Shown here: in pieces, positions 10,598 to 38,119 of the stretch | How positions within the stretch are numbered: the first letter of the stretch is position 1 | How the letters are laid out: the number at the start of each line of letters is the position of its first letter | Source: a virus | Direction: 5' to 3' (one strand) | Length of the DNA stretch: 64,000 bases | Virus record (IMG/VR): IMGVR_UViG_3300030117_004654 | Coordinates: 27,866-91,865 of that record | Notes under the pieces: model-generated | Databases searched by the model: none | What the model was told of the DNA's origin: nothing | What the model saw: only the letters and a program-made list of their open reading frames with translations | Made by a program: the position numbers and the translations under genes

Positions 10598-10740
10598 TCG
10601 TGGTCCACCTTTACAATAAATTTAGCAATCTTCATTAATTTGTTCCAACCCTCTTCATCATCATTATCAAAATGTTCAAGCAATAAACTAATATGACCAC
10701 GCAATTCTTTATTTGCTTTACAATAATCCATTTTACTCAT
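10594..10740 (-). CDS. Small hypothetical protein
   Basis: 48 aa (MSKMDYCKANKELRG...). Both ends overlap neighbouring genes by four bases, which is the main support. Helical and acidic in the middle. No family recognised. Confidence 0.6.
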   Translation of the reverse strand: MSKMDYCKANKELRGHISLLLEHFDNDDEEGWNKLMKIAKFIVKVDHE

Positions 10741-12014: not shown

Positions 12015-12019
12015 AATAA

Positions 12020-12564: not shown

Positions 12565-12565
12565 T

Positions 12566-12913: not shown

Positions 12914-12914
12914 T

Positions 12915-14429: not shown

Positions 14430-15070
14430 TTCTTACCACCTTTTATTCTTAAGATTCTATTTTTAAATGTAAGGGTTAAAAAGTTCCATTTTCTTTCCGC
14501 TTCCTGCCCAATAACATTTGCTAAATTTCTTTGAATAGGTTTTAATTCAAATCTTAACAAATCTTCAACCATATCTTCAATGCGACCCATCATATCATAA
14601 TTGTCTTTCAATTCTGCATATTTTAAATTCTTCTCACTAGAATAGGCAAACAACTCTTCCATAAATAACATTTCAGTATAATCGCCAACTAATCTTTTTA
14701 ACTCTTTTTGGCTACTAACAAAATTGTTAACATCTACATCTTTAACTAATTTTTTTAATTCCTTCTCAAACTTATTATATCTAGGTTGCATTTCACTTGC
14801 CATAGCCTGATGAGTAACTTCATGTGTATCTATATCAATTAGTAATTCAATAAAATCATCAATATCATTTGCGGTAACACCATCTTCTATTACACTTTCC
14901 CATACATTATCTAAAAATACTACCGCCCTATCTGTTTTTTCATCATATACCCCTAAAGATACAATAGGTTCTTTTGCAGTAGTGTTTGGATTAGTATCAT
15001 ATATTCCATCTTTTCTATCTAATTCACGTAATGATGTAGAAAGTTCAGCCTTCAATATATCTGTCCACAA
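14426..15070 (-). CDS. Tagged HExxH metalloprotease-like protein, TTG start
   Basis: 214 aa starting at a TTG (15070) preceded by GGTGAT; the first residues MWTDILKAEL match the tag, which fixes the start. HEVTH occupies residues 83-87, and E139-L-F-A-Y143 supplies the downstream ExxAY glutamate. This is the gluzincin zinc-protease arrangement also seen at 38-676, but here about 50 residues separate the two parts. The body is helical. Likely a protease acting on virion or host proteins; catalytic activity is inferred. Confidence 0.58.
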   Translation of the reverse strand: MWTDILKAELSTSLRELDRKDGIYDTNPNTTAKEPIVSLGVYDEKTDRAVVFLDNVWESVIEDGVTANDIDDFIELLIDIDTHEVTHQAMASEMQPRYNKFEKELKKLVKDVDVNNFVSSQKELKRLVGDYTEMLFMEELFAYSSEKNLKYAELKDNYDMMGRIEDMVEDLLRFELKPIQRNLANVIGQEAERKWNFLTLTFKNRILRIKGGKK

Positions 15071-15100
15071 AATATCACCAAATTTTTGGGGGAAATTTTT

Positions 15101-15418
15101 TTAAACAGGATGTTTTCCTACTTTAATTATACACGACATATACATATCGGACAATTTTCTAAATTTTTCTAAACTAGGATGAGTATAATCTTCTGTCATA
15201 TGGTCTTTGTATGCCGGAGGGTCATATTCACCTGTACGAGTATTAAAGGAATATTTATCATCCCATTCAATTAGGAAATCTTCAATATTACCCCATACTT
15301 TTTCAGCACCTTCAAGAGTTAAATCATGATTCGTATTAAACATTTTATTATATTCAGTAATAAGTTGTTTTTCACAAGGTCCGAATTCTTCATTTTTAAG
15401 TATATCCATCCAATTCAT
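15101..15418 (-). CDS. Tagged small protein, first gene of the left arm
   Basis: 105 aa beginning MNWMDILKNEEFG. It is the first gene of the minus-strand run that ends beyond base 1, so the promoter for the tagged arm should lie just upstream, between 15419 and about 15600. No family recognised. Confidence 0.73.
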   Translation of the reverse strand: MNWMDILKNEEFGPCEKQLITEYNKMFNTNHDLTLEGAEKVWGNIEDFLIEWDDKYSFNTRTGEYDPPAYKDHMTEDYTHPSLEKFRKLSDMYMSCIIKVGKHPV

Positions 15419-24027: not shown

Positions 24028-24248
24028 AGCCACATGAAAAGATTGAAGAGATGATTAAGAACGCAGAAAAGAAAGTCCATGCCGGAGAATGGTTGAGAAT
24101 TGAACAAGTTAGAACACTAATGAACCAATTTGGTATTTGGATGATTGAAAGAGAACAAGAGGAATTGAAAAACCTCAAGCATAATATATTGGAAGATATA
24201 CGACAAATAGGTGAAAAAGAATATAGAACATTGGGGGAAGAAGAATGA
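24024..24248 (+). CDS. Small helical protein
   Basis: 74 aa (MKPHEKIEEMIKNA...), almost entirely helical and charged, ending LGEEE. Function unknown. Confidence 0.6.
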   Translation: MKPHEKIEEMIKNAEKKVHAGEWLRIEQVRTLMNQFGIWMIEREQEELKNLKHNILEDIRQIGEKEYRTLGEEE

Positions 24249-24589
24249 AAGATTATGAAAAGAAATTTGATTATAGTGAACTAAGTGATGAGTTAGATAA
24301 ATCTGTAATGGATTCAGACTTGCCGGAAGAAGCAAAGAATTTTCTATTTGATTTGAATGGTGATGTGCTAGAATATACACAAGCCTATGAAGATTTTCTA
24401 GTAAATTCTACTAAAGAAGAATTGCTTGGTTTTGTGCGAGGATTTGATAATATGATGATTTTATATTTTGAATCTGTATTACTAGAATTGGGAATTGATT
24501 ATTTTCAAGCACCATTTCCCCTACATTTCTATAATATATCTATGGGAAATGATATTATTGAGAAATGGCATGGAAGTGAAGAAGAATGA
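24245..24589 (+). CDS. Acidic hypothetical protein
   Basis: 114 aa (MKDYEKKFDYSEL...), acidic and helical, ending GSEEE. Function unknown. Confidence 0.6.
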   Translation: MKDYEKKFDYSELSDELDKSVMDSDLPEEAKNFLFDLNGDVLEYTQAYEDFLVNSTKEELLGFVRGFDNMMILYFESVLLELGIDYFQAPFPLHFYNISMGNDIIEKWHGSEEE

Positions 24590-24744
24590 GAATTAATTTA
24601 GAAGGAGATTACCTAGAAATAGGTATATTCGGGATGGTACTAATCGGCATCCTTGAATTAGCATTTTGGGGTTGGATGTTTAGAATCGGCTCAAAACGAT
24701 TAGGACAAATTTATAAAATAATGGAGAGTGATGAAAGTGAGTGA
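24586..24744 (+). CDS. Small membrane protein
   Basis: 52 aa (MRINLEGDYLEIG...). One hydrophobic segment at about residues 11-32 (IGIFGMVLIGILELAFWGW). Overlaps the next gene by 14 bases. Confidence 0.55.
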   Translation: MRINLEGDYLEIGIFGMVLIGILELAFWGWMFRIGSKRLGQIYKIMESDESE

Positions 24745-24994
24745 ATTATTTAAAGATGATAGACATATTGTAGAATACAGAGTGGTTAATGATGAAAATC
24801 TACCACCAATTGTAATTACTATGACAGAAGATGATGAGGTGAAGGTTGTAATGAATCAGCATCATAAAATTTGGCTATGCTTGCATAGAAAAGAAATTGC
24901 AGGTTCAGCAAACTCATTGTTTGAGAAGATTGATATGATTTTGACAGGGTTTTTGTCAGAACAAAGAGAATACGAAAGGATGGATAATGAATGA
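24731..24994 (+). CDS. Small hypothetical protein
   Basis: 87 aa from the ATG at 24731 (MKVSELFKDD); a GTG one codon earlier is a less likely start. Beta-rich centre followed by a helix. Function unknown. Confidence 0.6.
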   Translation: MKVSELFKDDRHIVEYRVVNDENLPPIVITMTEDDEVKVVMNQHHKIWLCLHRKEIAGSANSLFEKIDMILTGFLSEQREYERMDNE

Positions 24995-25314
24995 AATGTA
25001 AAATATGTAAGGGAGAAGGGTTCTATAAGGTTGATGATAATGTAATCAATCGTTGCTCAATTTGTGATGGGACCGGAGAAGTAACAAAATGTCGTAATTG
25101 TAACGGTGTAGGAACTTTTACCCGTTCATTTGTAACTGAATGGAGAATTGTCCCTTGCATGACTTGTATTGGGAATGGTATTGTCCCAAAACGTTTATAT
25201 GATTGCCAGAACTGTGATAATACAGGAATAACAATGAATAGTCATACTGTTTATTATGATGATGGAAGTAGAGAAATAATTTATGAACCCGATATATGCG
25301 GGTGTAAAGAATAG
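24991..25314 (+). CDS. DnaJ-type zinc-finger protein
   Basis: 107 aa built from five CxxC units: CKICKGEG, CSICDGTG, CRNCNGVG, CMTCIGNG and CQNCDNTG. This CxxCxGxG pattern is the central zinc domain of DnaJ/Hsp40; there is no J domain and no C-terminal DnaJ domain. Free-standing versions occur in viruses and may act as redox or protein-binding factors. A substrate-binding role with the viral chaperonin is possible but unproven. Confidence 0.75.
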   Translation: MKCKICKGEGFYKVDDNVINRCSICDGTGEVTKCRNCNGVGTFTRSFVTEWRIVPCMTCIGNGIVPKRLYDCQNCDNTGITMNSHTVYYDDGSREIIYEPDICGCKE

Positions 25315-25325
25315 GAAGTGAAAAA

Positions 25326-26600
25326 ATGGATAGAGAATATGAAGAATTATTGCCCCGTAGGGCATTAGGCGAAGGTCATTGGGACCGAAGATTAAAAGAA
25401 AGAATGGTTGATTTGTCAGTAGCAGATAACTATGATGATTGTAAACACGAATGGATTGTTACCGAAAATGTTTGGTATATTCCATTTGGTGAAGATGCGA
25501 ATGTAGTTTTACCTGACGTTCATTGTCATGGAGAAAATGCTCATGCACACGAATGTTTATGTGGTCATCCTATTGTTTGGCATTTTGAGATTGAGAATAC
25601 TGAAAACGGTAATAAGCAAATTGTCGGTTCAGAACATATTGAATCTTACATGGTCATTCGATATTTTGAGAAGAAGGGATATGACCCTGAAGCGGTTACT
25701 GAAGAAATGATTGAAGAATGGATTCAAGAGCGTGTTAAATCTCTTAAAGCCCAATGGTGGTGGGATTTGCATGGTGAACAGTTTACTGAATGGTTTGAAG
25801 AAATTCGTGAATTGGATTTAAGAGTAAATCAACGAAGAAAGGGTAGTGTTTATTCTCAAACAACTAGACGTTATGAACCCCAATATGTTATTCGTAAGAA
25901 AGCCGAAGGTAAATTTGGTCAAGCAGGATATAAAATGGCATCTATTGTTTGGAGATGGAATCATCCTAACAATAGTCGTCGTCAAATTGAAACACGCGGT
26001 TATCCAAATGAGCGTTTGTGGAATGATTTGCAGATTTTCTATATTACTCAACAACAATATAGACAACAGATTCAACAAGAAGATGCTGAAATTGCAAGAA
26101 GGGTTGAAGAATTGGCTGAGCAGGATAGATTGGCAGAAGTTCGCCGTCGAGAAAGAGATGAAGAATATAGGCGTCAACGTATTGAAAGGGAAAAACGAAT
26201 GGAAGAGAGAAGAATGCAGGAAGCGGAACTTGAAGGAATTCAAGAAGAAAAGCGTCTTGCTAATCTTATGAAAAATAGATTAGATGCTGAATCAGCAGAA
26301 ACCACATTTGTTCAGATGTGTGAGTATTATGATGTGCCTGTTTTTACCAGAGATAATGGTGCGAATGATTGGGAAAGAAGATTTTTAGGAGACCTTATTA
26401 TTAGAATGGGTCAAGGTAAAAATCTATCCAATAGTCAATTGAACCATCTTAGAAATATTGTGGTTGATGAGCCATTACCTGCAACTGATAAGCAGATTTG
26501 GTATATCCAAAAATTGGCCGGAGATGATTTTGAAATCCCTGAAGGACTAAATAGAGTCACGGCTAGTGAATTAATTTCAATGTTGAAGGAGGAAGAATAA
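25326..26600 (+). CDS. Coiled-coil protein with zinc site and DUF3072-like end
   Basis: 424 aa. Residues about 38-105 carry a His/Cys cluster (HCHGENAHAHECLCGH) likely to bind zinc. Residues 245-315 are a long Arg/Glu/Gln coiled coil. The C terminus (LPATDKQIWYIQKLAG, then VTASELISML) resembles the DUF3072 module, a short helical unit seen in actinobacterial and viral proteins. Function unknown; possible DNA- or RNA-binding adaptor. Confidence 0.6.
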   Translation: MDREYEELLPRRALGEGHWDRRLKERMVDLSVADNYDDCKHEWIVTENVWYIPFGEDANVVLPDVHCHGENAHAHECLCGHPIVWHFEIENTENGNKQIVGSEHIESYMVIRYFEKKGYDPEAVTEEMIEEWIQERVKSLKAQWWWDLHGEQFTEWFEEIRELDLRVNQRRKGSVYSQTTRRYEPQYVIRKKAEGKFGQAGYKMASIVWRWNHPNNSRRQIETRGYPNERLWNDLQIFYITQQQYRQQIQQEDAEIARRVEELAEQDRLAEVRRRERDEEYRRQRIEREKRMEERRMQEAELEGIQEEKRLANLMKNRLDAESAETTFVQMCEYYDVPVFTRDNGANDWERRFLGDLIIRMGQGKNLSNSQLNHLRNIVVDEPLPATDKQIWYIQKLAGDDFEIPEGLNRVTASELISMLKEEE

Positions 26601-26815
26601 TGACAGAGTATTGTTTAGAAGCAGGAAGTAATTTGGAATTGGCGTTTTTCTTATCATTCTTTGTATTACTTGGTCATATACTAATTCATTATTGGTTGCC
26701 AAGGCGACCATATATCCCTAAACAATTTAGGGAAACTGACGGTAATACAGATGAGGCACTAAGGAGTGTATCATTATTTAGACAGATTTTAGAAGAAGGA
26801 AGTGAAAAGAAATGA
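26600..26815 (+). CDS. Small membrane protein
   Basis: 71 aa (MTEYCLEAGSNLE...). Hydrophobic segment at about residues 12-32, then a basic Arg-Pro-rich turn and a charged tail. Single-pass membrane protein of unknown role. Confidence 0.6.
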   Translation: MTEYCLEAGSNLELAFFLSFFVLLGHILIHYWLPRRPYIPKQFRETDGNTDEALRSVSLFRQILEEGSEKK

Positions 26816-27027
26816 GTAAAACAAAACAAGAGTTAGTAGAAGAGTTAGATGCTCTTCAAAAGAATTTTGCAGATGAGAAGAAAACAATAGGTGAAACATT
26901 AAACACCTTATCATCTAATCTAGCAACAGAACAAGCCCTTAGAATGAATTTAGAATTGATGATGGTTCAATATGAAAAGACCATCTTAATTCTAACTAAG
27001 CGATTAATGGAGGCGAGGGAGGCTTAA
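26812..27027 (+). CDS. Small coiled-coil protein
   Basis: 71 aa (MSKTKQELVEELDAL...), heptad-like pattern over nearly the whole length. ATGA overlap with the membrane protein gene just upstream, so the two may work together; spanin- or holin-like roles were considered but have no motif support. Confidence 0.6.
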   Translation: MSKTKQELVEELDALQKNFADEKKTIGETLNTLSSNLATEQALRMNLELMMVQYEKTILILTKRLMEAREA

Positions 27028-27101
27028 TATATGACCCCCTTCATGGCTACTTGCCTCGGACAAAAGGTATGCCAAACTATAAAAAACAGGAAGTGAAAAG
27101 A

Positions 27102-27302
27102 ATGAAATTAAGAATTTTGAATGAAACAGGACACACGGAATTAGAAGTATCTGCAAGTGAAGTTATTGAACACATTAACGACCATCCTACACATTGGGTG
27201 TTTGTTGATGGTGAAATGGTTTCACGCGAAGAAGTCACATCACTTAATTGGGATGAAGTTGCTTCAGTAGATTTAACACCCGCGATTGTCGGTGGTTATT
27301 AA
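27102..27302 (+). CDS. Ubiquitin-like beta-grasp protein ending Gly-Gly-Tyr
   Basis: 66 aa from the ATG at 27102, preceded by AGGAAGTGAAA. The order of elements matches a beta-grasp fold: strand MKLRILNE, strand HTELEVS, helix ASEVIEHIND, strand HWVFVDGEMVS, a turn, and strand VASVDLTPAIVGGY. The V-F-V-D-G-E-x-V step is typical of ubiquitin-like/ThiS-MoaD-type small proteins in viruses and bacteria. The tail G64-G65-Y66 would need removal of one residue to expose a diglycine end. An E1-like enzyme (33295) and a JAMM protease (34450) are encoded 6-7 kb downstream. ThiS/MoaD-like sulphur carrier is the main alternative. Confidence 0.6.
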   Translation: MKLRILNETGHTELEVSASEVIEHINDHPTHWVFVDGEMVSREEVTSLNWDEVASVDLTPAIVGGY

Positions 27303-27397
27303 GTCTAAAATAGACTGAAAGCCCCCTTCAACCCATTATGGGTGTATTTGGGGGAGAGAGGAGTTTAAATTTATTCCTCTCTTCCCCTCTTTTTTTT
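27302..27397 (+). terminator. Strong transcription terminator
   Basis: Three inverted repeats in series: AGTCTA/TAGACT (27302-27316), CCCCC...GGGGG enclosing ACCCAT/ATGGGT (27322-27354), and GAGAGGA/TCCTCTC (27356-27381), followed by eight T at 27390-27397. It closes the small-gene operon before the ribonucleotide reductase operon. Confidence 0.8.
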
Positions 27398-27402
27398 GTT
27401 TT

Positions 27403-27873
27403 GTGAAAACAAAAACTCAAAAAACAATAGGGGTGGCTATCGTCGGAATTTCGGGTGTTATTATGAAACCAGATAATAAGAATTATATGTCTGAAGATGT
27501 GTTAAAAATCATTTTAGAACAATTAGGTTGGTCTTATACAGGGACATTAACGGATATATTAAGAGAACATAATTTAAATGGGCCTATTGTGCCTATTCGG
27601 GCAGATTTTTACCCTATTGGGTGGAAACTCGCTTCGTCGAATAAAGCCATTATTATATGTGATGGTTATAAAAGTGTTATTCACTATAAAAATGAAAGAT
27701 TCCTCACAGGTTGGGGGATTTATGATAGATTCGGGCTTGAAGGTCTGAACGATATAGAAAATTGGAATTTTGAAGAAGAAATGGAATGGTTAATTAAAAA
27801 GTATAATGGGGATTTGATTACCTCATTTACTCAGTTAACTGATTGTCCGTTTAGAACAAGTATAAGGTGTTAA
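27403..27873 (+). CDS. Hypothetical protein before ribonucleotide reductase
   Basis: 156 aa from a GTG at 27403, or 136 aa from the ATG at 27463; no good ribosome site precedes either. Globular composition with several Trp (GWKLASSN, LTGWGIYDRF). No family recognised. Its last codons overlap the GTG/ATG region of the next gene, so it is probably co-translated with the reductase. Confidence 0.55.
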   Translation: MKTKTQKTIGVAIVGISGVIMKPDNKNYMSEDVLKIILEQLGWSYTGTLTDILREHNLNGPIVPIRADFYPIGWKLASSNKAIIICDGYKSVIHYKNERFLTGWGIYDRFGLEGLNDIENWNFEEEMEWLIKKYNGDLITSFTQLTDCPFRTSIRC

Positions 27874-27875
27874 AA

Positions 27876-30026
27876 ATGTTACCAAGTGAAAAAGAATGGA
27901 TTCAAAACTTATTGAAACAAAGATATTATCAAGCAGATGAAAATACATGGCCCCAAGTTTGTCAAAGAGTGGCTAAATTAGGCAAGACGCCTGAAGACCA
28001 AGCGGCATTTTTTAATTATTTGTTGCATTGTGATTTCCTACCTAACAGTCCCACATTATTTAATGCGGGAACAGGTAAAGGAAATCTTTCGGCTTGCTAT
28101 GTGTTACCAATGAAAGATTCTTTAGAAGAAATCTTTGATACTGCTAAAAATACGGCATTAATTCATAAATATGGTGGAGGAACAGGTTTCGATTTTACCA
28201 GAATTAGACCTGAAGATGCTACTGTTGGTGGAACAAATCAAGTTGCATCAGGACCACTCTCTTTTATGAGAGTTATTGATGCTAATACTCAAGAAATTAA
28301 GCAAGGTGGAAAACGTCGTGGGGCTAATATGGCCGAACTGCGAATTGACCATCCTGATATTGTAAAGTTTATTAAGATGAAAACAGCAGATGATGGAACA
28401 TTAACTAATTTTAATATTAGTGTTAGTGTAACAGATTCTTTTATGGAAAAACTTCAGAAATATCCAGATGACCCTTGCTTTTTTCATTGGAATGATTATG
28501 CATATCTAATTAATAATGAAACAGACGAAGTAGAGATGGAGAGTACTGATTCTACATTTGATGATAAATACACTTATCGTCAAGTTTGGGACTTAATTGC
28601 ACAATCAGCATGGGAATGTGCAGACCCCGGAATTATCTTTATTGATAGAATTAATAAACAAATGCCAGCAAATTACTTGGCTCATCCTGAATACTTGAAT
28701 GAAACAGGAGATGATTTGACTATACGCGCAACTAATCCCTGTGGTGAACAGCCGTTGCCCGATTATGGTTCATGTAATCTTGTTGCATTAAACTTGGGTA
28801 ATTTTGTTTCTAAGGGCAAAATGGATTGGAATAGGCTTCAAGATGCAGTTAAGTATGCTTATCGTTTAGGTGAAGCAGTAATTGATGAGAATGTTTACCC
28901 TATTCCTGAAATCGAAAAGCATAGTCGTGCATATAGGAACATTGGTATTGGTGTTATGGGATATGCTGATGCCTGTATTCTCATGGGTATGCGATATGGA
29001 GAAGAAGATGCTTTAGCCTTTGGTGAAGAAGTAATGCGTTTTATCTATAAATGGACATTTGTTGAGTCAGTGGAATATGCTGAAGAATATGGTTGCTTCA
29101 AAGGGTGGGAATACGGAGATTATAAGCCACTTATTGATGGTCGCCAATTACCACCAGAAACTCGCAAGAAGTATAAAAAGACAGGTTTAAGAAATATTTG
29201 TATTACAACAATCGCACCAACAGGTAGCATTGGGTATATTGCAGATTGTTCTACGGGAATTGAACCTCATTATGCTGATAAGGTGTTTAGAGTTGACCAA
29301 TCTAATCCTGAAGGAACATGGATTACTACACCATTAGCGGCTAAATACCCTGAAGTATTCGTTGCGGCTACTGAATTAGATGTAGATGCTCATGTTGCAG
29401 TTCAAGCGGTATTTCAAAAGTGGGTTGATTCAGGAATCAGTAAGACGATTAATATGGATAATAGTGTTACAGTTGATGATGTTAAGCGAGCATATATGTT
29501 GGCTTGGGATTCAAATTGTAAAGGTGTAACAATTTATAGGGATGGTTCAAAGTCTATACAGGTTTTGAATACTTCAGAAAAAAGTAATTTGAAACCTAAA
29601 GACTTAGACGATATTAGTGAAGCAGTTAGATTTAGATTGCCGGCTGAAGGTCTTGATGATGAATACATTTACATTACAGTATCACACTATGAGAATAAAC
29701 CTATTGAGATGTTTGTGAATTATCCATATCTAAATAGACCAACAATAGAACACACTCAACGTCGAGAACAATTAGACAGTATTTCTAGACTTATTTCTGT
29801 TGGATTGCGTTATCATATCCCATTGGATAAATTGATTGAGCAATTGGAAAAATCAAAAGGTTCAATGAGAGGTACTGTTGCACAAATTTCAAATGTATTG
29901 AAAGAATTTGCATCGAGAAGTGATGACCCTTACACTGAATCTTGTGTAGAATGTGATAATGGAAATATGGTTTTCCAAGGTGGATGTGCAACCTGTGATG
30001 TTTGCGGTCATTCCGAGTGTGGTTAA
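27876..30026 (+). CDS. nrdJ: Class II (adenosylcobalamin-dependent) ribonucleotide reductase
   Basis: 716 aa from the ATG at 27876. Reduces ribonucleotides to deoxyribonucleotides for viral DNA synthesis. NSPTLFNAG at 57-65 and LSACYVLP at 71-78 with the first redox Cys; GGGTGFDFTRIRP after residue 100; NPCGEQPLPDYGSCNL from residue 287 holds the radical-site Cys and catalytic Glu. The C-terminal tail is Cys-rich (CVECD, CATCDVCGHSEC), as in NrdJ enzymes that pass electrons via a terminal zinc/thiol module. No NrdA-type tyrosyl radical partner gene is present, which also favours class II. The cofactor must come from the host. No intein. Confidence 0.93.
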   Translation: MLPSEKEWIQNLLKQRYYQADENTWPQVCQRVAKLGKTPEDQAAFFNYLLHCDFLPNSPTLFNAGTGKGNLSACYVLPMKDSLEEIFDTAKNTALIHKYGGGTGFDFTRIRPEDATVGGTNQVASGPLSFMRVIDANTQEIKQGGKRRGANMAELRIDHPDIVKFIKMKTADDGTLTNFNISVSVTDSFMEKLQKYPDDPCFFHWNDYAYLINNETDEVEMESTDSTFDDKYTYRQVWDLIAQSAWECADPGIIFIDRINKQMPANYLAHPEYLNETGDDLTIRATNPCGEQPLPDYGSCNLVALNLGNFVSKGKMDWNRLQDAVKYAYRLGEAVIDENVYPIPEIEKHSRAYRNIGIGVMGYADACILMGMRYGEEDALAFGEEVMRFIYKWTFVESVEYAEEYGCFKGWEYGDYKPLIDGRQLPPETRKKYKKTGLRNICITTIAPTGSIGYIADCSTGIEPHYADKVFRVDQSNPEGTWITTPLAAKYPEVFVAATELDVDAHVAVQAVFQKWVDSGISKTINMDNSVTVDDVKRAYMLAWDSNCKGVTIYRDGSKSIQVLNTSEKSNLKPKDLDDISEAVRFRLPAEGLDDEYIYITVSHYENKPIEMFVNYPYLNRPTIEHTQRREQLDSISRLISVGLRYHIPLDKLIEQLEKSKGSMRGTVAQISNVLKEFASRSDDPYTESCVECDNGNMVFQGGCATCDVCGHSECG

Positions 30027-30332
30027 ATGATGAGGGAAAGTTGGTCTAAATTTTTAAAAGATTTTAAAGAAGCAAAGATGCTAATTATTGAATTAGAAAT
30101 GGAACGTAGAGGAAAATACGAACCTGCATATGTTTGGGATTCTATTATAGAGAGAATGTATGGAATAGAAATGAGTGATAATAGAGATGTAGATAAAATT
30201 ACACTCTTAATGACTGATGTTTGTAGACACTTATTATTACCACAAACAATGTTTCCTAAATCATGGTTAATTAAAAAGTTACCAGAATTAAGGGATAGAA
30301 TGAATTATTATAAATATAATGAAGAGGAATAA
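30027..30332 (+). CDS. Hypothetical helical protein
   Basis: 101 aa (MMRESWSKFLKDF...), begins right after the reductase stop, ends YNEEE. Helical, with no recognised family. Confidence 0.6.
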   Translation: MMRESWSKFLKDFKEAKMLIIELEMERRGKYEPAYVWDSIIERMYGIEMSDNRDVDKITLLMTDVCRHLLLPQTMFPKSWLIKKLPELRDRMNYYKYNEEE

Positions 30333-30334
30333 AG

Positions 30335-30607
30335 ATGTTTAAAGGAAAAGAAGAATTAGAAGGAATGTATAAAAGTGAAGTTTTGGAATTTATGAAAGAT
30401 ATTGTATTTCCAAATAGAACAAAGGGAGGTTTAATTATGGCTAATGGTTTTACTAAAGAAATCATTGGAACCAATATGTCAGCACATAGGCCAATTATTG
30501 ATGGTGTTGAATATACATGGAATTATTTAGAAACTTACCCTAATCCCTTACTAAGGGTGTTGGCATATAGATTATGGAGTAGTTATAATGGAGGTGAAGA
30601 AGAATGA
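30335..30607 (+). CDS. Small hypothetical protein
   Basis: 90 aa (MFKGKEELEGMYK...), ends GGEEE. No family recognised. Confidence 0.6.
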   Translation: MFKGKEELEGMYKSEVLEFMKDIVFPNRTKGGLIMANGFTKEIIGTNMSAHRPIIDGVEYTWNYLETYPNPLLRVLAYRLWSSYNGGEEE

Positions 30608-30789
30608 ATGAAGAAGAAGTAAATGTAAAGTATAGATTTAGAATTACTATATTGAGAGCAAGCGGTAGTGTATGGGTTGAAGATTATAATTCAATCCCTG
30701 CTATGCTTGAAGGTGCAGGGGAATTGATTGCTCAATATCCTCACTTAGTATTGTCTAAGCAAAGAATTGTATTACAGGAAGATGAGTAA
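30604..30789 (+). CDS. Small hypothetical protein
   Basis: 61 aa (MNEEEVNVKYRFR...), beta-helix-beta pattern. ATGA overlap with the upstream gene. Confidence 0.58.
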   Translation: MNEEEVNVKYRFRITILRASGSVWVEDYNSIPAMLEGAGELIAQYPHLVLSKQRIVLQEDE

Positions 30790-30958
30790 AATGACCAAAG
30801 ACCCTGAATATGTAGAAAGTAGAATTTCTTATATGAAAAGAATTGCTACTAGATGCAGAATTTGTGGTGGTCAATTAACTGACCCTGAAGATGCAAAACA
30901 TGAAATGCACGAAAAGTGTTTAAAAAATTATAAAAAGAAGAGTTATGGAGTTAGATAG
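30782..30958 (+). CDS. Small zinc-binding protein
   Basis: 58 aa from 30782, or 55 from the ATG at 30791. CRICGG, then HEMHEKC gives C-x2-C plus H/C ligands of a treble-clef-like finger. Basic tail. Overlaps both neighbours. Confidence 0.55.
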   Translation: MSKMTKDPEYVESRISYMKRIATRCRICGGQLTDPEDAKHEMHEKCLKNYKKKSYGVR

Positions 30959-30959
30959 A

Positions 30960-32198
30960 ATGGAAACTATATTTGATAATGAAATTAAAATATATACGGC
31001 TGATGATTCAAGTAGATATAATTCTGCATGGCTAACAATTAAAAGTGATATGACATATGAATATAGTAATTCTGATTATAATTGGAGGCGTCACTATGAT
31101 TCAGATTGTGTTATGCCCAACAGGTTTACATCTGAACCTGAACCGACTATTGCGGCAATAAAGCATTTTCTTAATAGAAAACTTAAACTAAATAGAAAAG
31201 GAAAAAGTGATTTTAACACGTATATTACAATAGGTGATAAAAAGGAACCCCTAACTATTTTGTTTAGTAAAATTGGTGTTAGGTATTATTTGATGGGCGA
31301 AATGCAATCAAAAGATACTGTATTATCTGCAATATGTAGAGTAATTTATAGGTCATGTTTTGAATCTGACCAATCTAAATTATATAATTATATGCTACAT
31401 CATCTAAGATTGCCAGAAAATGTATCATATGCTTTAGAAAATCGCGCACCTTTTCATTGGTATGTTAAGGCTAAAAGGATTGAAGTTAGATTTAACATCA
31501 AAATGATTGGAGATGATGAATGTGCTATGGAAATTTCTGATGGTATTTGGGCCCCTATTTCAGTAAAGAATTTAAACGTTTATATGAATTATTATTGGAA
31601 GGGACAAGATAGAGGTTCTTGGAAATTTTTGTCACCAAGGAAACTTTGGACAAAGTTAATGAAAGAAGAACCTTCTGAAACGCAATTGAAAATGATGATT
31701 GCATTTTTAGGACAAAATAGAACTGATGATTTAGTACAGAGCAGGGCGGTCCAACTTGTAAAGGATATGTCAACCCAATATAAAAATAAAATGAAGGTTT
31801 TATGGTATGATGCAGGTGCTTCTAATAAGCAACGAATTAAAGCAATTTTAGTTAAAGGTTCGTTAGCCGATTGGATTATAACAGATAATGAATTTAAATC
31901 TGATATTCAGGCAGTTTCTACATTTATCTATAAGAATGATGCAGGGGGTTCTGAAAAGAAATTCTTGGATGGTTACGTTGCAGGGCCAATTTGTATTGAT
32001 AACATGACGAAAAACTCATCAGTTGGCGACCAATTTGCGGCAAGAACTATGGCATTATTTAATGATAAGTTAACTGTTAGTCTTGTTAATACGATTAAAA
32101 GATATTTGGATGATGTTCATGTTGAAGGACAATATTTATGTAGAATAGATTTTGATGATTTCAACCATCAGACAATTGATGATATGTTGGGGAATTAA
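30960..32198 (+). CDS. Large hypothetical protein
   Basis: 412 aa from the ATG at 30960, nine bases after GGAG; an ATG at 30945 overlaps the previous gene. Mixed alpha/beta, basic, with several aromatic clusters (RRHYDSDC, PFHWYVKAKR). No catalytic motif or family recognised. Lies between the reductase and TFB. Confidence 0.65.
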   Translation: METIFDNEIKIYTADDSSRYNSAWLTIKSDMTYEYSNSDYNWRRHYDSDCVMPNRFTSEPEPTIAAIKHFLNRKLKLNRKGKSDFNTYITIGDKKEPLTILFSKIGVRYYLMGEMQSKDTVLSAICRVIYRSCFESDQSKLYNYMLHHLRLPENVSYALENRAPFHWYVKAKRIEVRFNIKMIGDDECAMEISDGIWAPISVKNLNVYMNYYWKGQDRGSWKFLSPRKLWTKLMKEEPSETQLKMMIAFLGQNRTDDLVQSRAVQLVKDMSTQYKNKMKVLWYDAGASNKQRIKAILVKGSLADWIITDNEFKSDIQAVSTFIYKNDAGGSEKKFLDGYVAGPICIDNMTKNSSVGDQFAARTMALFNDKLTVSLVNTIKRYLDDVHVEGQYLCRIDFDDFNHQTIDDMLGN

Positions 32199-32199
32199 T

Positions 32200-32346
32200 A
32201 TGAATAATGTTAAATTTATTACCGTAATGGTAGAATACGAAAGTGACGAAATATGGGAAGAGTCACTTAAAGATATAGAAGAATTAATATCAATGATGAA
32301 CAATATTAGTAGGCAAGCCACTATTATTGAAATTAAGGAGGAATGA
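32200..32346 (+). CDS. Small hypothetical protein
   Basis: 48 aa (MNNVKFITVMVEY...), a ferredoxin-like half (strand, helix, strand), ending IKEE. Provides the GGAGG box for the TFB gene. Confidence 0.5.
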   Translation: MNNVKFITVMVEYESDEIWEESLKDIEELISMMNNISRQATIIEIKEE

Positions 32347-32348
32347 AA

Positions 32349-33308
32349 ATGAGAGTAGAAGATACAACAAAGTGTAAAGAGTGCAATAGTAGAAACTTAG
32401 TTGAAGATATTAAGCGAGGAGAATTATATTGCGCTGATTGTGGTTCAGTTTTAGATGAAAAGCAAATTGAACGAAAAACATCGGGTCGAGAAAAAGATGG
32501 CGACCCAAATTCAGCAAGAATTTATGAACCAAATGACCCTGCATGGGTTTTGGGTTCTCAAGTTGGTATTAGAAATACTGATGGTTCGATTGACAGAACA
32601 AAAATTGGCAGAGCGTTAAGAAAAGAAAATAAAAGGCAGTTACCAAGCCATGTTAGAAATCAACAGAAAGGGATAGTGCAAGTTAAAATGCTTCTTGCAG
32701 ATTTAGGCGCACCTCTTGATTTTCAAAAACAAGCAGTTTGGAACTATAAGCGACTAAATCAACTTAGAGTTTTTAATGGTATGCCTTTGGAAACTAGAGC
32801 CGCCGCAGTAGTTTATTTTACTTATAGGGATAATAATATTTTAAGGTCTATTGAAGAAGTAGCAGAAGCAAATTCTTCTCATCCTAGACAAGTTGCTAAG
32901 TTATCTAGAAAAATTGCTTCGGCATTTAGACGACCTTGGGTATTGTCTAGAAAAAATATGCAGGATGAGATTCTAAAATATTGTAATCTACTTAAGATGA
33001 ATCAGAATGATATTGCATCTATACTTGAATTATCTGTTCCTGTGGAACAAATGGCTGACGGCCTTTACTATCAAAAAGGAGTAGGATTAACTGCGGCTCT
33101 TATTTATCTAGGTATTAGGTTAATTCCAAATGGTTCATATAGAACCCAAAGGGATATTTCAGAGGTTTGTAGAATTACAGAAGTTACCTTAAGAAACAAC
33201 TACAAACTTATACTTAAGGGATTAAATATAGACAAGTCAAGTGTTGACCATCAAGGTTTTACTATTGACGACATTATAAGTGGGGCGTATAGAAATGAAG
33301 AAGAATAA
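32349..33308 (+). CDS. tfb: Transcription factor B (TFIIB-like)
   Basis: 319 aa from the ATG at 32349, eight bases after GGAGG. Zinc ribbon with C9-x2-C12 and C28-x2-C31; next a B-finger/linker region (ERKTSGREKDGDPNSARIYEP), then two cyclin-type repeats of about 85 residues each (first around NQQKGIVQVKMLLADLGAP, second around QDEILKYCNLLKMNQNDI). Archaeal TFB binds TBP-TATA and the BRE and recruits RNA polymerase. A viral copy could redirect host polymerase to viral promoters. Its stop codon lies 14 bases inside the next gene. Confidence 0.9.
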   Translation: MRVEDTTKCKECNSRNLVEDIKRGELYCADCGSVLDEKQIERKTSGREKDGDPNSARIYEPNDPAWVLGSQVGIRNTDGSIDRTKIGRALRKENKRQLPSHVRNQQKGIVQVKMLLADLGAPLDFQKQAVWNYKRLNQLRVFNGMPLETRAAAVVYFTYRDNNILRSIEEVAEANSSHPRQVAKLSRKIASAFRRPWVLSRKNMQDEILKYCNLLKMNQNDIASILELSVPVEQMADGLYYQKGVGLTAALIYLGIRLIPNGSYRTQRDISEVCRITEVTLRNNYKLILKGLNIDKSSVDHQGFTIDDIISGAYRNEEE

Positions 33309-33855
33309 AATATTAGTTATTGGTGCAGGTGGAATAGGTTCGTATTTAATTGAAGTGTTAAATCGAACTGAATGTTATGATATTGTTGTAGCAGACCCAG
33401 ATAAATATGAGAAAAAGAATCTAACATATCAATTTTGCACAACTGATGAAATTGGGACAAATAAAGCCTCAGCGACAACAGGTAAATATCATAATGTTAA
33501 GAGCATTAAATATCCAATTTTAACTGCGAAGCAGATTGAAGGATTTGATTTGGTGGTCTGTTGTGCAGACAATTTAGATGTTAGGCGACTTCTATATCGT
33601 GAAAATTGTGCATGGTTAGACTTGAGAGCGCAAGGTAGAAATTGTGCATATATTTCATATCGTGCAGATAGGAATAAACATGATGTATTATTGGCCGGAC
33701 CTGAAGGTTCATTTAGTTGTCAAGGGGATTCATGGGATGGTTCAGCAAAAGCACAACATTTTTCACATATTATTGCGGCAGGAATGGGCGCACAATGGAT
33801 TCACCGATATTTTGCAGGTGATGATGTAGCGGATTTTAAGGTTGTGAATGTATGA
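33295..33855 (+). CDS. E1/ThiF-like activating enzyme
   Basis: 186 aa from the ATG at 33295. Rossmann nucleotide loop G10-A-G-G-I-G15; D34-P-D36 acidic binding residues; N42-L-x-x-Q46, matching the E1/MoeB/ThiF NLxRQ step; K57; D92-N93; and a DLRAQGR stretch at 109-115 found in viral ThiF-like enzymes. C142 in SFSCQG is a candidate thioester cysteine. These enzymes adenylate the C-terminal glycine of ubiquitin-like proteins. The MoeB zinc CxxC pairs are absent. With the Gly-Gly-Tyr protein (27102) and the JAMM protease (34450) it suggests a conjugation or sulphur-transfer pathway. Confidence 0.8.
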   Translation: MKKNKILVIGAGGIGSYLIEVLNRTECYDIVVADPDKYEKKNLTYQFCTTDEIGTNKASATTGKYHNVKSIKYPILTAKQIEGFDLVVCCADNLDVRRLLYRENCAWLDLRAQGRNCAYISYRADRNKHDVLLAGPEGSFSCQGDSWDGSAKAQHFSHIIAAGMGAQWIHRYFAGDDVADFKVVNV

Positions 33856-33989
33856 GTATGATGGATGAAACAAATGTTCTATTGGAAAAGTTAAATGTTC
33901 TGATAGAAAAAACAAATAGAATTATTATTACAGTCAATGTAGTGAACATTGTTACGTTGTGTGTATTATTGATGGTGGTATTGAAATGA
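33852..33989 (+). CDS. Small membrane protein
   Basis: 45 aa (MSMMDETNVLLEK...). Amphipathic helix followed by a hydrophobic segment (about residues 24-44). Overlaps the E1-like gene by four bases. Confidence 0.55.
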   Translation: MSMMDETNVLLEKLNVLIEKTNRIIITVNVVNIVTLCVLLMVVLK

Positions 33990-34249
33990 GAGAGAGAATG
34001 AAAAATTTAGTAAAATATGAATGTAAGAATAGTAAGTGTGGTAAACTATGGGGATTGACGCCAGATATGGTCGTTCTTAGTGACGAGCGTATTTTTTGTG
34101 GTTTTGATTTTCAAGGTAGAAAGAAATGGAGAAAGAGCGGCGAATGCACTTGTGGTACACCGTTTGATTATCCATCAATTAAAATTAAAGATTTACAAGA
34201 CAGTTATGGAAGTGCTTGGAAATCTAATCAAGCAAAAGGAAGTGAATGA
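33986..34249 (+). CDS. Small zinc-binding protein
   Basis: 87 aa from the ATG at 33986. Cys pairs at C13...C18 (CKNSKC) and later CTCG; probably a zinc ribbon. Function unknown; its position between the E1-like and JAMM genes is notable. Confidence 0.6.
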   Translation: MRERMKNLVKYECKNSKCGKLWGLTPDMVVLSDERIFCGFDFQGRKKWRKSGECTCGTPFDYPSIKIKDLQDSYGSAWKSNQAKGSE

Positions 34250-34453
34250 ATGAAAGAAGTATTTACAGCAAAAAATGGTAGACCTTATATTAAGGATGAG
34301 AATGGTAGAGTTAAGTTTATCAGTGATAAACAAGCGGAAGAATACCTTCAAGAAGAAGAAACTAAGAAAGAGGGAATGATTTTTATTACAACAGCATTTA
34401 TTGTTATAGCATCAATTGTTGCCATTAGTGATTACGGAGTAGGATTAATATGA
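34250..34453 (+). CDS. Small membrane protein
   Basis: 67 aa (MKEVFTAKNGRPY...). Short beta-type N-terminal part, charged linker EEETKKEG, then a hydrophobic C-terminal segment (about 43-62). Tail-anchored topology is likely. Confidence 0.58.
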   Translation: MKEVFTAKNGRPYIKDENGRVKFISDKQAEEYLQEEETKKEGMIFITTAFIVIASIVAISDYGVGLI

Positions 34454-34932
34454 TTTCAAGTGATAGCATTGTAGTTATGCAAGCAGATTGGGATGACCAA
34501 ATTAAGAATGCTTGGGCTTATGGTGGGTTTGATTACAGAAATCAGGAATTCTTAGATACTATTTGGGAGATGAGTTTAACCGCTTTTGATATTGGCCGTG
34601 AGGTACAAGTGGTTATTGATGGTAAAATGAATATTTATATTTCTGCGGGTGACCCCGGATTTGTTTGGTTTAAGGAACCACCAAAAGGAATGTGTTTGCC
34701 TATTGAATGTTGGATTCATACTCACCCATTTGGTTCAGCATATTTTTCTGGAACAGATTGGGCAACAATTAAAACGTGGGAACCTGTAATGAATTGTGCA
34801 ATTGTTTTAGGTGATAAACAACAAATGGATTGGGTAAAGGGTTCAGAATACACTGTGTTTTATCAACAACATGATATTCCTGATTGGGCCAATACACAAA
34901 TGACTCTTGATGATTTTATGGAGGAAGAGTAA
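34450..34932 (+). CDS. JAMM (JAB/MPN) metalloprotease
   Basis: 160 aa. H90-T-H92-P93, six residues, S100, two residues, D103 is an exact JAMM zinc motif (HxHPx6SxxD). JAMM enzymes cut after the diglycine of ubiquitin-like proteins, either maturing precursors or removing conjugates. In tailed phages a JAMM domain also occurs in tail-assembly proteins, but those are fused or adjacent to tail genes; here it stands alone close to an E1-like gene and far from the tail block. Ends MEEE and overlaps neighbours tightly. Confidence 0.82.
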   Translation: MISSDSIVVMQADWDDQIKNAWAYGGFDYRNQEFLDTIWEMSLTAFDIGREVQVVIDGKMNIYISAGDPGFVWFKEPPKGMCLPIECWIHTHPFGSAYFSGTDWATIKTWEPVMNCAIVLGDKQQMDWVKGSEYTVFYQQHDIPDWANTQMTLDDFMEEE

Positions 34933-35120
34933 TGGGACATTTTTATGAAATTGAAATGACATTTACTCCAGAACAGTTAGACCATATTAATTATATTGTC
35001 GATACAACCGGTGCAAGTTTTAATGACGTTGTTGTATTTCTAATTAAGTTAGGAATGGAAACTGAACAAGAGTGGCAAGATGCTTTAATTAAAGAATTTG
35101 AAGGAGAGGAAGAAGAATGA
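34932..35120 (+). CDS. Small protein, possible ribbon-helix-helix
   Basis: 62 aa. A beta-type start (FYEIEMTFTPEQLDHI) is followed by two helices with a G-A-S turn, the order of ribbon-helix-helix regulators. Ends GEEEE. Assignment tentative. Confidence 0.5.
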   Translation: MGHFYEIEMTFTPEQLDHINYIVDTTGASFNDVVVFLIKLGMETEQEWQDALIKEFEGEEEE

Positions 35121-35290
35121 ATAGAGATTTAGTAACGGCAGTAGCAAATAAAGTAAGTGACAAGGATTCAGTAATCCTTTTTGATATTTTGAAAAAGACA
35201 CGAACTGAAGATTGGTGGAATTTACATGAGGATACACTTTATCAGTTGTGTCTTAAAATGTTAGAAGATATGGAGAGTGAGGAAGAATGA
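35117..35290 (+). CDS. Small hypothetical protein
   Basis: 57 aa (MNRDLVTAVANKV...), helical, ends SEEE, four-base overlaps on both sides. Confidence 0.55.
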   Translation: MNRDLVTAVANKVSDKDSVILFDILKKTRTEDWWNLHEDTLYQLCLKMLEDMESEEE

Positions 35291-35388
35291 TAACAGGAGA
35301 TATTTGCCCGTGTTGTAATAAGATGTTACCAGAATGGAGAAATTATTGTAAAACAACTAAAACTTGTAGAGTGGTGGTGATGAAATGA
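35287..35388 (+). CDS. Micro Cys-rich protein
   Basis: 33 aa (MITGDICPCCNKM...). C7-x-C9-C10 and two later Cys could bind one metal ion. Overlaps the GroES-like gene start by four bases. Confidence 0.5.
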   Translation: MITGDICPCCNKMLPEWRNYCKTTKTCRVVVMK

Positions 35389-35627
35389 TTAGCGCACAGG
35401 GAGATTGGGTAGTTTTAATTTATGAACATAAAATTTCGGATTCTGGTATTATTACAAATGAAGGAAATTCTGCCACTGTTATTTCAGTAGGTAGTAATTG
35501 CCCCGATGACATTCAGGAATTACAGGGGAAGCGTGTAGTGTTTTCCCAAAAGAGAACATTGATTGAAATCAAAGAGTATATGGTTATTGATTGGCGAGAT
35601 ATTTTGTATGTGGAGGAAGAAGAATGA
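35385..35627 (+). CDS. GroES-like co-chaperonin
   Basis: 80 aa. The GDWVVLIYEHKISDSGIIT opening, VGSNCPDDIQELQGKRVVF centre and a final ILYV match the beta-barrel order of group I co-chaperonins, with a shorter mobile loop than GroES (about 97 aa). Immediately upstream of and overlapping the GroEL-like gene. A T4 gp31-like role with the viral or host chaperonin is likely. Confidence 0.7.
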   Translation: MISAQGDWVVLIYEHKISDSGIITNEGNSATVISVGSNCPDDIQELQGKRVVFSQKRTLIEIKEYMVIDWRDILYVEEEE

Positions 35628-37150
35628 TTTTACATGGAGAAGAAGCGAGGGAAAAATTGATGCAAGGTGTTGATTTAGTGGCAGATACTGTTGTTGGAAC
35701 ATTAGGTCCAAAGGCGAAAACTGTCGTTATTAAGCAGAACGGAAGACCCGTTGTAATTAACGATGGTGTTACTATTGCTAAGGCAGTATTTAGTGATGAC
35801 CCATTTATTCAAATGGGTGTAGAATTAGTACAAGAAGTTGCTTCTCAAGCACAGAATAAATCTGGTGATGGAACAACAACGTCTATTATTTTGGCTAGAG
35901 AACTTTGCAGAAGTGGTCTAAAGGACATAAAAGCAGGTATTGACCCTGTTCTTCTTAAGAAAGAATTGGACAGTGTTGCTAATGATATTATTGAACATCT
36001 TAATTCTATTGCTAAGCCTGTTAACGGTAGAGGCGATTTAGAAAATGTAGCGACTATTGCGGCAAATAATGATGCTGAATTGGGATTACTAATTGCAGAT
36101 ATTGTTGAAGAAATTGGAAAGGATGGTGTTATTTCTGTTGAGGATGGTCAAAATGCTGAAACAACTTATAGCGTAATTGATGGAATGGAATTAGATAGAG
36201 GATATGTCCATCATGTTATGGTAAATAAGCCCGATGAAGGTTACTGTGAATTTGAAGATGCTTTAGTTTTAATGACAAACGACACACTAAATAATTTTGA
36301 GGATATTTATAATATTTTAGATATGTCGGTAAAGGAAAAGAAACCTTTGTTAATTATTGCTAAAGAAATTGAAGGTTCAGCATTGAATAATATCTTACTT
36401 AATCTTGCAGGTGAAAGAATTAGAGCCTGTGCAATTCGCGCCCCTGATTGGGGAGATGACCAAGTAGAAGTATTGAATGATATTTCTACCCTTTTAGGTG
36501 GAAAGGTTTTTAATTCTACGGTCGGTGATGATTTTTCAAAGGCTAAGTTAGAAGATTTAGGTATTGCAACAAAGGTTAGGGTTAGTAGAACAACAACAAT
36601 GCTAATTAATGATAATGCTATCCAAGAACATATTAATGAAAGAGTTGCACTTTTGTCATCTCAATTAGATAATCAAACTAACGATTGGTTTCGCGAAAAG
36701 ATTCATAGAAGAATTGGTAAATTAACGGGAGGCGTAGCGGTTGTAAAGGTTGGTGCGGCTACTGAAACAGAATTAAGAGAAAGAAAAGAAAGATTGGATG
36801 ATGCTCTTAATGCCACTAAATGTGCAGTTCAAGAAGGAATCGTTGTTGGTGGTGGAATGGCATTATATGATTGGGTTCTTAAACAGAAGCCTTCACCAAT
36901 TAACTCAGCGTTTTCTGCACCAACTAATGTTATTGCTTCAAATGCGGGTGTTTCATTGAATTCAAATAAATTGCTAGAAGGTCTAGGTTTTAATGCTAAC
37001 ACTAATAAGTATCAGAATTTGCTTGAAGCAGGTGTTATTGACCCTGTTAAGGTAACAAAGAATGCAGTATTAACTGCCACTTCTATTGCAGGTCTTGTTT
37101 TAACAACAAACGTTTTAGTAGGAGAAAAGGAGGAACCCCAATGGGGTTAA
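35624..37150 (+). CDS. groEL: Group I chaperonin (GroEL-like)
   Basis: 508 aa from the ATG at 35624, which overlaps the co-chaperonin stop. TLGPK (26-30), GDGTTT (81-86), DALNATKCAVQEGIVVGGG and the end GVIDPVKVTKNAVLTATSIAGL are group I signatures, not those of the archaeal thermosome. Slightly shorter than GroEL (548 aa), without the GGM tail. Folds proteins in an ATP-driven ring; clients are probably viral virion proteins. Its group I type in an archaeal virus implies transfer from bacteria or a host with group I chaperonins. Confidence 0.9.
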   Translation: MILHGEEAREKLMQGVDLVADTVVGTLGPKAKTVVIKQNGRPVVINDGVTIAKAVFSDDPFIQMGVELVQEVASQAQNKSGDGTTTSIILARELCRSGLKDIKAGIDPVLLKKELDSVANDIIEHLNSIAKPVNGRGDLENVATIAANNDAELGLLIADIVEEIGKDGVISVEDGQNAETTYSVIDGMELDRGYVHHVMVNKPDEGYCEFEDALVLMTNDTLNNFEDIYNILDMSVKEKKPLLIIAKEIEGSALNNILLNLAGERIRACAIRAPDWGDDQVEVLNDISTLLGGKVFNSTVGDDFSKAKLEDLGIATKVRVSRTTTMLINDNAIQEHINERVALLSSQLDNQTNDWFREKIHRRIGKLTGGVAVVKVGAATETELRERKERLDDALNATKCAVQEGIVVGGGMALYDWVLKQKPSPINSAFSAPTNVIASNAGVSLNSNKLLEGLGFNANTNKYQNLLEAGVIDPVKVTKNAVLTATSIAGLVLTTNVLVGEKEEPQWG

Positions 37151-37386
37151 AGGATTCTGAAATTAGGGGCCGTATTGCCCGAAGCGCAATAGATGAAGTT
37201 ATCATTGAAAAGGGTAGATATTGGAATATTGATGTTGTTGATATTAGATGGTACAAAGATGGGAAGGCTACTAGTAAAGGAATTAGAGTTAACATGAATG
37301 AGTTAGTGCATATGCACAATATATTAGGAAGGATTTTAGATGGTGAGCATACGAGAAGTAGAGAGAATAATCAAGAGAAAGAATAA
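37141..37386 (+). CDS. Small hypothetical protein
   Basis: 81 aa (MGLKDSEIRGRIA...). Helical start, then beta strands around a WNIDVVDIRW segment. Overlaps the chaperonin end by ten bases. Confidence 0.58.
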   Translation: MGLKDSEIRGRIARSAIDEVIIEKGRYWNIDVVDIRWYKDGKATSKGIRVNMNELVHMHNILGRILDGEHTRSRENNQEKE

Positions 37387-37582
37387 TGGTATTCATTGGA
37401 CAGGTAAAGCCAAAAAACAATTTGCTGAAACAATGCAATTAGTTATGGCTATGATGGTCGATAGAATAGAATATGAAAACTTTCTCTCTAATGATAAAAA
37501 GAGAGTTGGTGAATTAGCAGTAAAGGCAGTAATGTGTCATATTGTAGAAAAAATTAATAAAGGTGATGAAGATGAAGTTTGA
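37340..37582 (+). CDS. Possible histone-fold protein
   Basis: 80 aa. A short helix (REVERIIKRKNN), a loop with H-W, a long helix (KKQFAETMQLVMAMMVDRI), a second loop with K-K-R, and a short helix (VKAVMCHIVEKI) follow the helix-loop-long-helix-loop-helix order of archaeal histones. The R-I-I-K step resembles the first helix of archaeal histones. Key DNA-contact residues are only partly met. Alternative: any small three-helix protein. Its start overlaps the previous gene by 47 bases, which leaves the true start open. Confidence 0.4.
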   Translation: MVSIREVERIIKRKNNGIHWTGKAKKQFAETMQLVMAMMVDRIEYENFLSNDKKRVGELAVKAVMCHIVEKINKGDEDEV

Positions 37583-37772
37583 AGAAATTATTAAGCATAT
37601 TCAAGAAGCACAATTGTTTGTTGAAAGTGAAGTGAACGAAGAGTTTGATGAAATTGTTGAAAAGTCTTACGAAACATTAGAATTCGTAGCAGGTCACATT
37701 GTTGGAATGAGAGATGCTATGGTTATGGTGCAGACAATTTTAGCAAGAAGTGTACTAGGTGAAGAAGAATGA
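37572..37772 (+). CDS. Small acidic helical protein
   Basis: 66 aa from the ATG at 37572 (MKFEEIIKHIQEA), with AGGTGAT upstream. All helical, ending LGEEE. Function unknown. Confidence 0.58.
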   Translation: MKFEEIIKHIQEAQLFVESEVNEEFDEIVEKSYETLEFVAGHIVGMRDAMVMVQTILARSVLGEEE

Positions 37773-38119
37773 GCCAATGGCTAAGAAAGAAGATTATATC
37801 CTTCATGGGTAATGTTTATGTGTGGTTAGATAAAGGACTTAAGCATGAAACAAGTCCTATTCTTGGTGTTAATATTCATTCTGATTTTCAGGATATGAAT
37901 AGACGAGAGTTATGCCAACATATTGCTGATAAATTTGGTTGGGAAAAGGATGCGTTTTGGAATCTTGAATCAACACAGAAGATTAGGTTGTGTTGCCAAC
38001 AGGCAAGAAATATGGAAACAGCGCATAAAGAAAGTATTAAGATGATGGTATTATTGGATGACGTTAAAGATAGGCACGACCTAAGAAATTGGGAAGAATT
38101 AAGAGGTGAGGAAGAATGA
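37769..38119 (+). CDS. Hypothetical helical protein
   Basis: 116 aa (MSQWLRKKIISFM...), helical with a CCQQ segment, ending RGEEE. ATGA overlap with the upstream gene. No family recognised. Confidence 0.6.
   Translation: MSQWLRKKIISFMGNVYVWLDKGLKHETSPILGVNIHSDFQDMNRRELCQHIADKFGWEKDAFWNLESTQKIRLCCQQARNMETAHKESIKMMVLLDDVKDRHDLRNWEELRGEEE

Follow-up and report, generated by a model that had tools for sequence, protein, structure and literature searches.

The window analysed here is a stretch of 64,000 nucleotides corresponding to bases 27,866–91,865 of a 91,865-base (91.9 kb) IMG/VR virus record. Five of its genes are considered together: those for a ubiquitin-like protein (Ubl), an E1-type activating enzyme and a JAMM protease, and two conserved genes located between Ubl and E1. 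Where 83 viral loci are referred to, these are non-redundant loci chosen for holding Ubl, E1 and JAMM.

27102..27302, plus strand: Ubl precursor, 66 aa; predicted beta-grasp, ends VGG-Y, predicted cut after Gly65
30945..32198, plus strand: 417-aa partner, candidate E2-like transfer protein; invariant Cys350 (GPICIDN...GDQ)
32343..33308, plus strand: TFB (TFIIB-like); in 83/83 loci, between the 417-aa gene and E1
33295..33855, plus strand: E1/ThiF-family activating enzyme, 186 aa; nucleotide loop, NLxYQ, DN, candidate thioester Cys142
34450..34932, plus strand: JAMM/MPN+ metalloprotease, 160 aa; E51, H90, H92, S100, D103

The virus has a 33.6% G+C content and carries a tRNA-Lys(UUU) gene. Two Pfam scans covering 99 ORFs (one of them with 25 of 33 families listed) identified a split DNA polymerase of family B, an RFC-like AAA ATPase and an ATP-dependent ligase, an ERCC4 nuclease, a PD-(D/E)XK nuclease and RNR, and a TFB, chaperonin, portal, SU10-type capsid protein and terminase; a GroES-like protein was identified using PHROGs. 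The ICTV describes magroviruses as the order Magrovirales, associated with Poseidoniales (PMC10768690, PMC12999244). From the match between this description and the gene content, we infer that the virus is a magrovirus-like archaeal tailed virus and that its host is probably a member of the Poseidoniales. Approximately 16 virion-module proteins of unequal size share the N-terminal peptide M(S)W-x-[DN]-[IL]-L-K, with variants such as MSWEDILK, MWFDILK and MNWANILK; they are encoded on the minus strand at window positions 38–15418 and in L143 (10139–10888) and L144 (4677–7093). This peptide resembles a capsid-targeting or scaffold signal.

A preliminary description of this DNA reported a 66-residue beta-grasp-type protein with a GGY end at 27102–27302. 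The ORF is in place and its product ends in TPAIVGGY. The AlphaFold (AF2) model (pLDDT 85.3) is a beta-grasp with the order strand-strand-helix-strand-strand-(helix)-strand, and nearly all of its best 50 Foldseek matches are ubiquitin, NEDD8, SUMO or ubiquitin-like domains, with ubiquitin/NEDD8 the nearest (best E = 1.4e-3, none below 0.001; best structure match with a TM-score of approximately 0.5). There is no model for this protein in Pfam, NCBIfam or PADLOC. Ubl is found in 57 IMG/VR loci, and profile matches comprise 123 occurrences of 98 distinct proteins. All 98 end in VGG plus 0–2 variable residues: none in 21 proteins, one in 27 and two in 50. Conservation of the GG end in relatives, which had been named beforehand as one of the points on which the reading could fail, is therefore complete among these proteins.

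As a coding Shine-Dalgarno sequence gives many neighbouring proteins an EEE terminus, the Ubl terminus had to be checked for the same effect. A hidden Shine-Dalgarno sequence was ruled out: among 102 genes, the Gly-Gly codons occur in 14 of 16 combinations, and a start codon follows closely after Ubl in only one. As the codons are freely variable and a start codon is rarely near, conservation of the GG end acts at the protein level. The EEE or EEEE C-termini of many early proteins (24245–38119, plus strand) apparently arise from in-frame reading of the Shine-Dalgarno sequence that serves the overlapping gene downstream, which is ordinary translational coupling. Directly after Ubl is a 156-aa ORF (27403–27873) whose family occurs in 44/83 loci and matches no known family; a C-terminal Cys is conserved in 43 of the 44 members.

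The E1 protein matches Pfam ThiF at E = 1.7e-17, above the curated cut-off, over a span of only residues 2–102. Its motifs are GAGGIGS, DxD, NLxYQ, DN and Cys142 in SFSCQ; at only 186 aa, it is a single domain lacking a separate Cys domain. E1 was found in 80 IMG/VR loci, and the 110 distinct viral proteins all retain GxGGIGS, DxD, N..Q, K, DN and the Cys of SFSCQ. Cys142 is thus invariant in the viral enzymes and has an aligned Cys in host E1s (its position was placed by eye against ThiF/UBA5). The nucleotide loop, DN and candidate thioester Cys previously assigned to an E1/ThiF-like enzyme at 33295–33855 are all present, while the remaining motif is refined to NLxYQ, which lacks the Arg found in the usual NLxRQ. 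An E1 profile matches UBA5, Uba4, MoeB, Cap2 and ubiquitin E1 in the PDB. ThiF is the best NCBIfam match, and the enzyme also matches PRTRC_ThiF (6e-8) and E1-E2 models (1e-11); the NCBIfam UbaA model (the SAMP E1 equivalog) scores 34.6 bits and its cut-off of 450 is not passed. E1 relatives with approximately 30–34% identity are also present on Methanosarcinales/Methanoperedens contigs (L147, 9998–10585; L156, 9938–10525), possibly marking another Ubl system.

The JAMM zinc-site residues are E51, HTHP (90–93), S100 and D103. The match of this protein to Pfam Prok-JAB (E = 0.0015) is below the cut-off of that family, and the family profile identifies AMSH and Rpn11 in the PDB. The zinc-site Glu, HTHP and SxxD are retained in 111/111 distinct viral JAMMs and the ORF at 34450–34932 is in place, in agreement with the stand-alone JAMM-motif protease described earlier. 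A tail-assembly JAMM, also considered, was ruled out by gene location and by co-inheritance with Ubl and E1. In tblastn searches of phage records, neither JAMM nor the 417-aa partner had credible relatives.

In all viral loci, Ubl, E1 and JAMM are encoded on one strand, with 2.3–7.0 kb between Ubl and E1 and at most 1.7 kb between E1 and JAMM. Where E1 was found with more than 8 kb of upstream sequence, Ubl is present in 46/46 loci; where more than 3.5 kb lies downstream of E1, JAMM is present in 79/79; and E1 and JAMM are both present in 48/48 Ubl-found loci with more than 8 kb downstream. The three genes thus co-occur without exception in related viruses. As the viral loci seemingly form one lineage, this pattern represents strict retention and not independent association. 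Two further families, TFB and the 417-aa protein, are found in 83/83 loci, giving the order partner-TFB-E1-JAMM, whereas the neighbouring chaperonin (GroEL) family is found in only 60/83. TFB is a conserved neighbour and not a demonstrated member of the pathway. A viral-type candidate partner, TFB, E1 and JAMM also occur in L145 and L146, from a MAG labelled Maricaulis; these contigs are viral sequence that ended up in a bacterial bin.

The gene for the 417-aa protein is located between those for Ubl and E1. Without exception, the viral members (83/83) share Cys350, within (G)PICIDN, and the DQ of a GDQ that comes after it; the Cys matching Cys350 is kept in 42/43 host partners. We were unable to match this protein to Pfam, NCBIfam, PADLOC or PDB sequences or credibly to a PHROG, and the host members have no Pfam match. 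In its AlphaFold model (pLDDT 88.8), a helix is followed by four strands, by another strand that ends at the Cys and then by helices, a linear order that resembles that of an E2. No E2 is among the best 50 PDB Foldseek matches of the whole chain, and Foldseek against PDB and BFVD identified no known enzyme; strong BFVD matches are limited to three proteins, 30–34% identical, for which no name is shown. When the family was compared with seven canonical E2 sequences using hhalign, the score was approximately 1.5%, as low as that of controls with no relationship to it. Even so, Cys falls on Cys in the local alignments with E2s obtained from the combined partner profile and from the host one. The C-terminal domain is homologous to proteins encoded beside host Ubl, E1 and JAMM genes (hhalign 99.4%). 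We regard the 417-aa protein as a candidate transfer protein and do not place it in the E2 family. Neither Pfam nor hhalign linked it by sequence to UQ_con or to prokaryotic E2 families. The preliminary description recognised no E2-like protein; the 417-aa protein, with its invariant Cys, is a candidate for this step.

An E1 profile search revealed relatives in Poseidoniales MAGs. Beside several of these E1s are genes for JAMM, for a Ubl ending in VGGN, VGGY or IGGC, and for proteins with a C-I-x-x...G-D domain; by inspection, neighbouring genes are GDP-mannose dehydratase-, glycosyltransferase- and acyl-CoA dehydrogenase-like. This cellular context, together with the location of one such system on a 2.06-Mb contig (G011), indicates that the host clusters are chromosomal. 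Among 116 Poseidoniales genomes, Ubl is present in 53, E1 in 55, JAMM in 54 and the Cys partner in 61; the distribution is nearly all-or-none, with all four genes in 46 genomes and none in 54, and the partner is present in every genome having Ubl or E1. Fisher p values for co-occurrence are 1e-18 to 1e-27, calculated within one order and ignoring phylogeny. No canonical E2 (PF00179) exceeded the cut-off in the seven host genomes searched.

In 20 of 29 host loci examined, Ubl is a tandem of 2–4 copies with mostly GG-x junctions. Fusions are also found: Ubl-Ubl-E1 (G101, G034), Ubl-partner (G099) and E1-JAMM (G096). Exceptions to the GG motif are QAG/LAG in two genomes and VFG in G106, which has a Ubl-JAMM-partner-E1 cluster. 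When E1s were placed in a tree with ThiF and MoeB as outgroups, those of the viruses and those of the hosts fell into separate clades (support 87 and 99). The viral set therefore does not look recently captured. TFB-like genes are also present in two host clusters. In L161 (953–3400), TFB and an AAA+ ATPase with AAA_lid_3 precede the host Ubl cluster, and this ATPase could be an unfoldase for tagged proteins. By eye, a Poseidoniales JAMM in L298 (584–1102) resembles the viral family more than it does the host JAMMs, possibly reflecting virus-host gene exchange.

Sets of Ubl, E1 and JAMM, bacterial polyUbl operons and archaeal ubiquitylation are already known kinds of system. Archaeal SAMPylation (SAMP1-3, UbaA and HvJAMM1; Haloferax) is similar with respect to its beta-grasp Ubl with a GG end, ThiF/MoeB-type E1, stand-alone JAMM and euryarchaeal setting. 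The present system differs in its viral location, the tail after GG, the co-inherited Cys protein, the tandem Ubls and Ubl fusions of the hosts, and the UbaA model score (34.6 vs 450). Euryarchaeal SAMP systems are not known to use an E2. They use a MoeB-like E1 and a JAMM (PMC4443979, PMC4895103), and in Haloferax TBP2 is turned over via Ubl modification and the proteasome (PMC4895103). In Caldiarchaeum, Rpn11 (a JAMM protein) trims pro-ubiquitin after GG, and E1 activates it only once it has been trimmed (PMC5654768). The Caldiarchaeum/Asgard operon (Ub, E1, E2, RING and Rpn11) is similar in its residues after GG and JAMM cut; in contrast, no canonical E2 was found here in the virus or in seven host genomes, and the E1 is only 186 aa, without a separate Cys domain.

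The bacterial Bil, polyUbl and PRTRC/CBASS-II operons also combine Ubl, E2, JAB and E1, and polyUbl operons hold 2–3 tandem Ubls (PMC11354881). The present genes differ in encoding a single-domain E1, a stand-alone JAMM and another Cys partner, and in their location in archaeal chromosomes and an archaeal virus. JAMM proteases of archaeal mobile elements are known from Borgs, the Methanoperedens elements whose multicopy de-SAMPylases have been read as counter-defence (PMC12660748), whereas here a single JAMM is kept together with one Ubl and one E1. In crAss-like phages, a relative of the E1 (33% over 109 aa, E = 1e-9) adjoins a JAMM-motif protein; both proteins are larger than those described here and no GG-ending Ubl was seen nearby. 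Near primase, this E1, the JAMM-motif protein and a conserved 434-aa protein are encoded by adjacent genes (L293, 1985–6414; L294, 1532–6430), which we regard as a parallel phage Ubl-type cluster.

None of the three refuting conditions set for the ubiquitin-like pathway first suggested for this locus arose: the predicted fold is a beta-grasp, the GG end is conserved in viral relatives and the three genes co-occur. We think it probable, with some reservation, that the magrovirus-like virus encodes a compact ubiquitin-like protein-conjugation system in which JAMM trims, E1 charges and the Cys protein may transfer. Ubl would be synthesised as a precursor with 0–2 residues after Gly-Gly; the viral JAMM, like Rpn11 acting on Caldiarchaeum pro-ubiquitin, would remove this tail after Gly65, and the viral E1 would adenylate the exposed glycine and probably carry Ubl as a thioester on Cys142. 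Transfer to target proteins would probably proceed via Cys350 of the 417-aa protein, acting as a divergent E2-like or E2-analogous enzyme, or else directly, as in archaeal SAMPylation. JAMM may also reverse the tag. The viral copy is presumably used early in infection, on host or viral proteins, and transcription factors would be an attractive candidate target because of the viral partner-TFB-E1-JAMM order and the TFB-like genes of the two host clusters.

How far the 417-aa protein takes part is the point on which a SAMPylation-like, E2-independent pathway would differ: Ubl, E1 and JAMM would function as in Haloferax, and the 417-aa protein would be a substrate, receptor or regulator. Such a pathway has precedent in the MoeB-like E1 and JAMM of euryarchaeal SAMP systems (PMC4443979, PMC4895103) and agrees with the absence of E2 homology by Pfam, profile or fold comparison. 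We consider it unlikely, however, as the invariance of the partner Cys (83/83 viral, 42/43 host), the presence of the partner in all host genomes with Ubl or E1, and the Ubl-partner fusion point to an active role. Bacterial sulphur-carrier pathways also comprise a Ubl with a tail after GG, an E1 and a JAMM, and the parts list fits these as well. In a QbsE/CysO-type scheme, JAMM would trim Ubl, E1 would make a thiocarboxylate, and sulphur would pass to tRNA or a metabolite. ThiF as the best NCBIfam match of E1 favours this, as does the viral tRNA-Lys(UUU), whose wobble base is a known thiolation site.

This sulphur-carrier alternative, raised in the preliminary description, has lost ground to conjugation and now appears distinctly improbable: no sulphur acceptor or rhodanese is among the Pfam families listed for the 99 ORFs (25 of 33 in one of the two scans), although the host might provide one, and sulphur carriers seldom show tandem poly-Ubls or Ubl-partner fusions like those of the hosts, which fit conjugation better. 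Least credible is interference alone, in which the viral JAMM would deconjugate host tags and Ubl and E1 would be decoys without a pathway of their own. A homologous system in hosts of the same order and the proposed counter-defence role of Borg de-SAMPylases (PMC12660748) would suit such a role, but decoys would not need the strictly conserved E1 and Ubl active sites, and approximately half of the searched host genomes lack such a system.

Returning to conjugation, the homologous Poseidoniales chromosomal systems point to an archaeal pathway common to virus and cells. It is quite possible, although not the likelier case, that magroviruses and Poseidoniales share a complete and hitherto unrecognised cascade of mono- and poly-Ubl precursors, a minimal E1, JAMM and a new class of transfer protein, and that the virus tags proteins with its own copy; the Cys-dependent transfer protein would then be unrelated or very distantly related to E2s. 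No account of the present system was found among the papers searched on Poseidoniales and ubiquitin or on archaeal tandem or viral Ubls, and the magrovirus-related papers searched make no mention of ubiquitin, ThiF or JAB.

These results suggest that a virus of ocean archaea and its likely hosts share an undescribed protein-tagging system. If this reading is true, the compact four-protein set would be suited to in vitro reconstitution, and a widespread group of marine archaeal viruses would carry a modifier, its activator, a protease and a candidate transfer protein. Polyubiquitin-like genes would then exist in the Poseidoniales hosts, outside the Asgard/Aigarchaeota setting of canonical archaeal ubiquitylation, and the system would bear on the origin of ubiquitin systems and on virus-host conflict in abundant ocean archaea.
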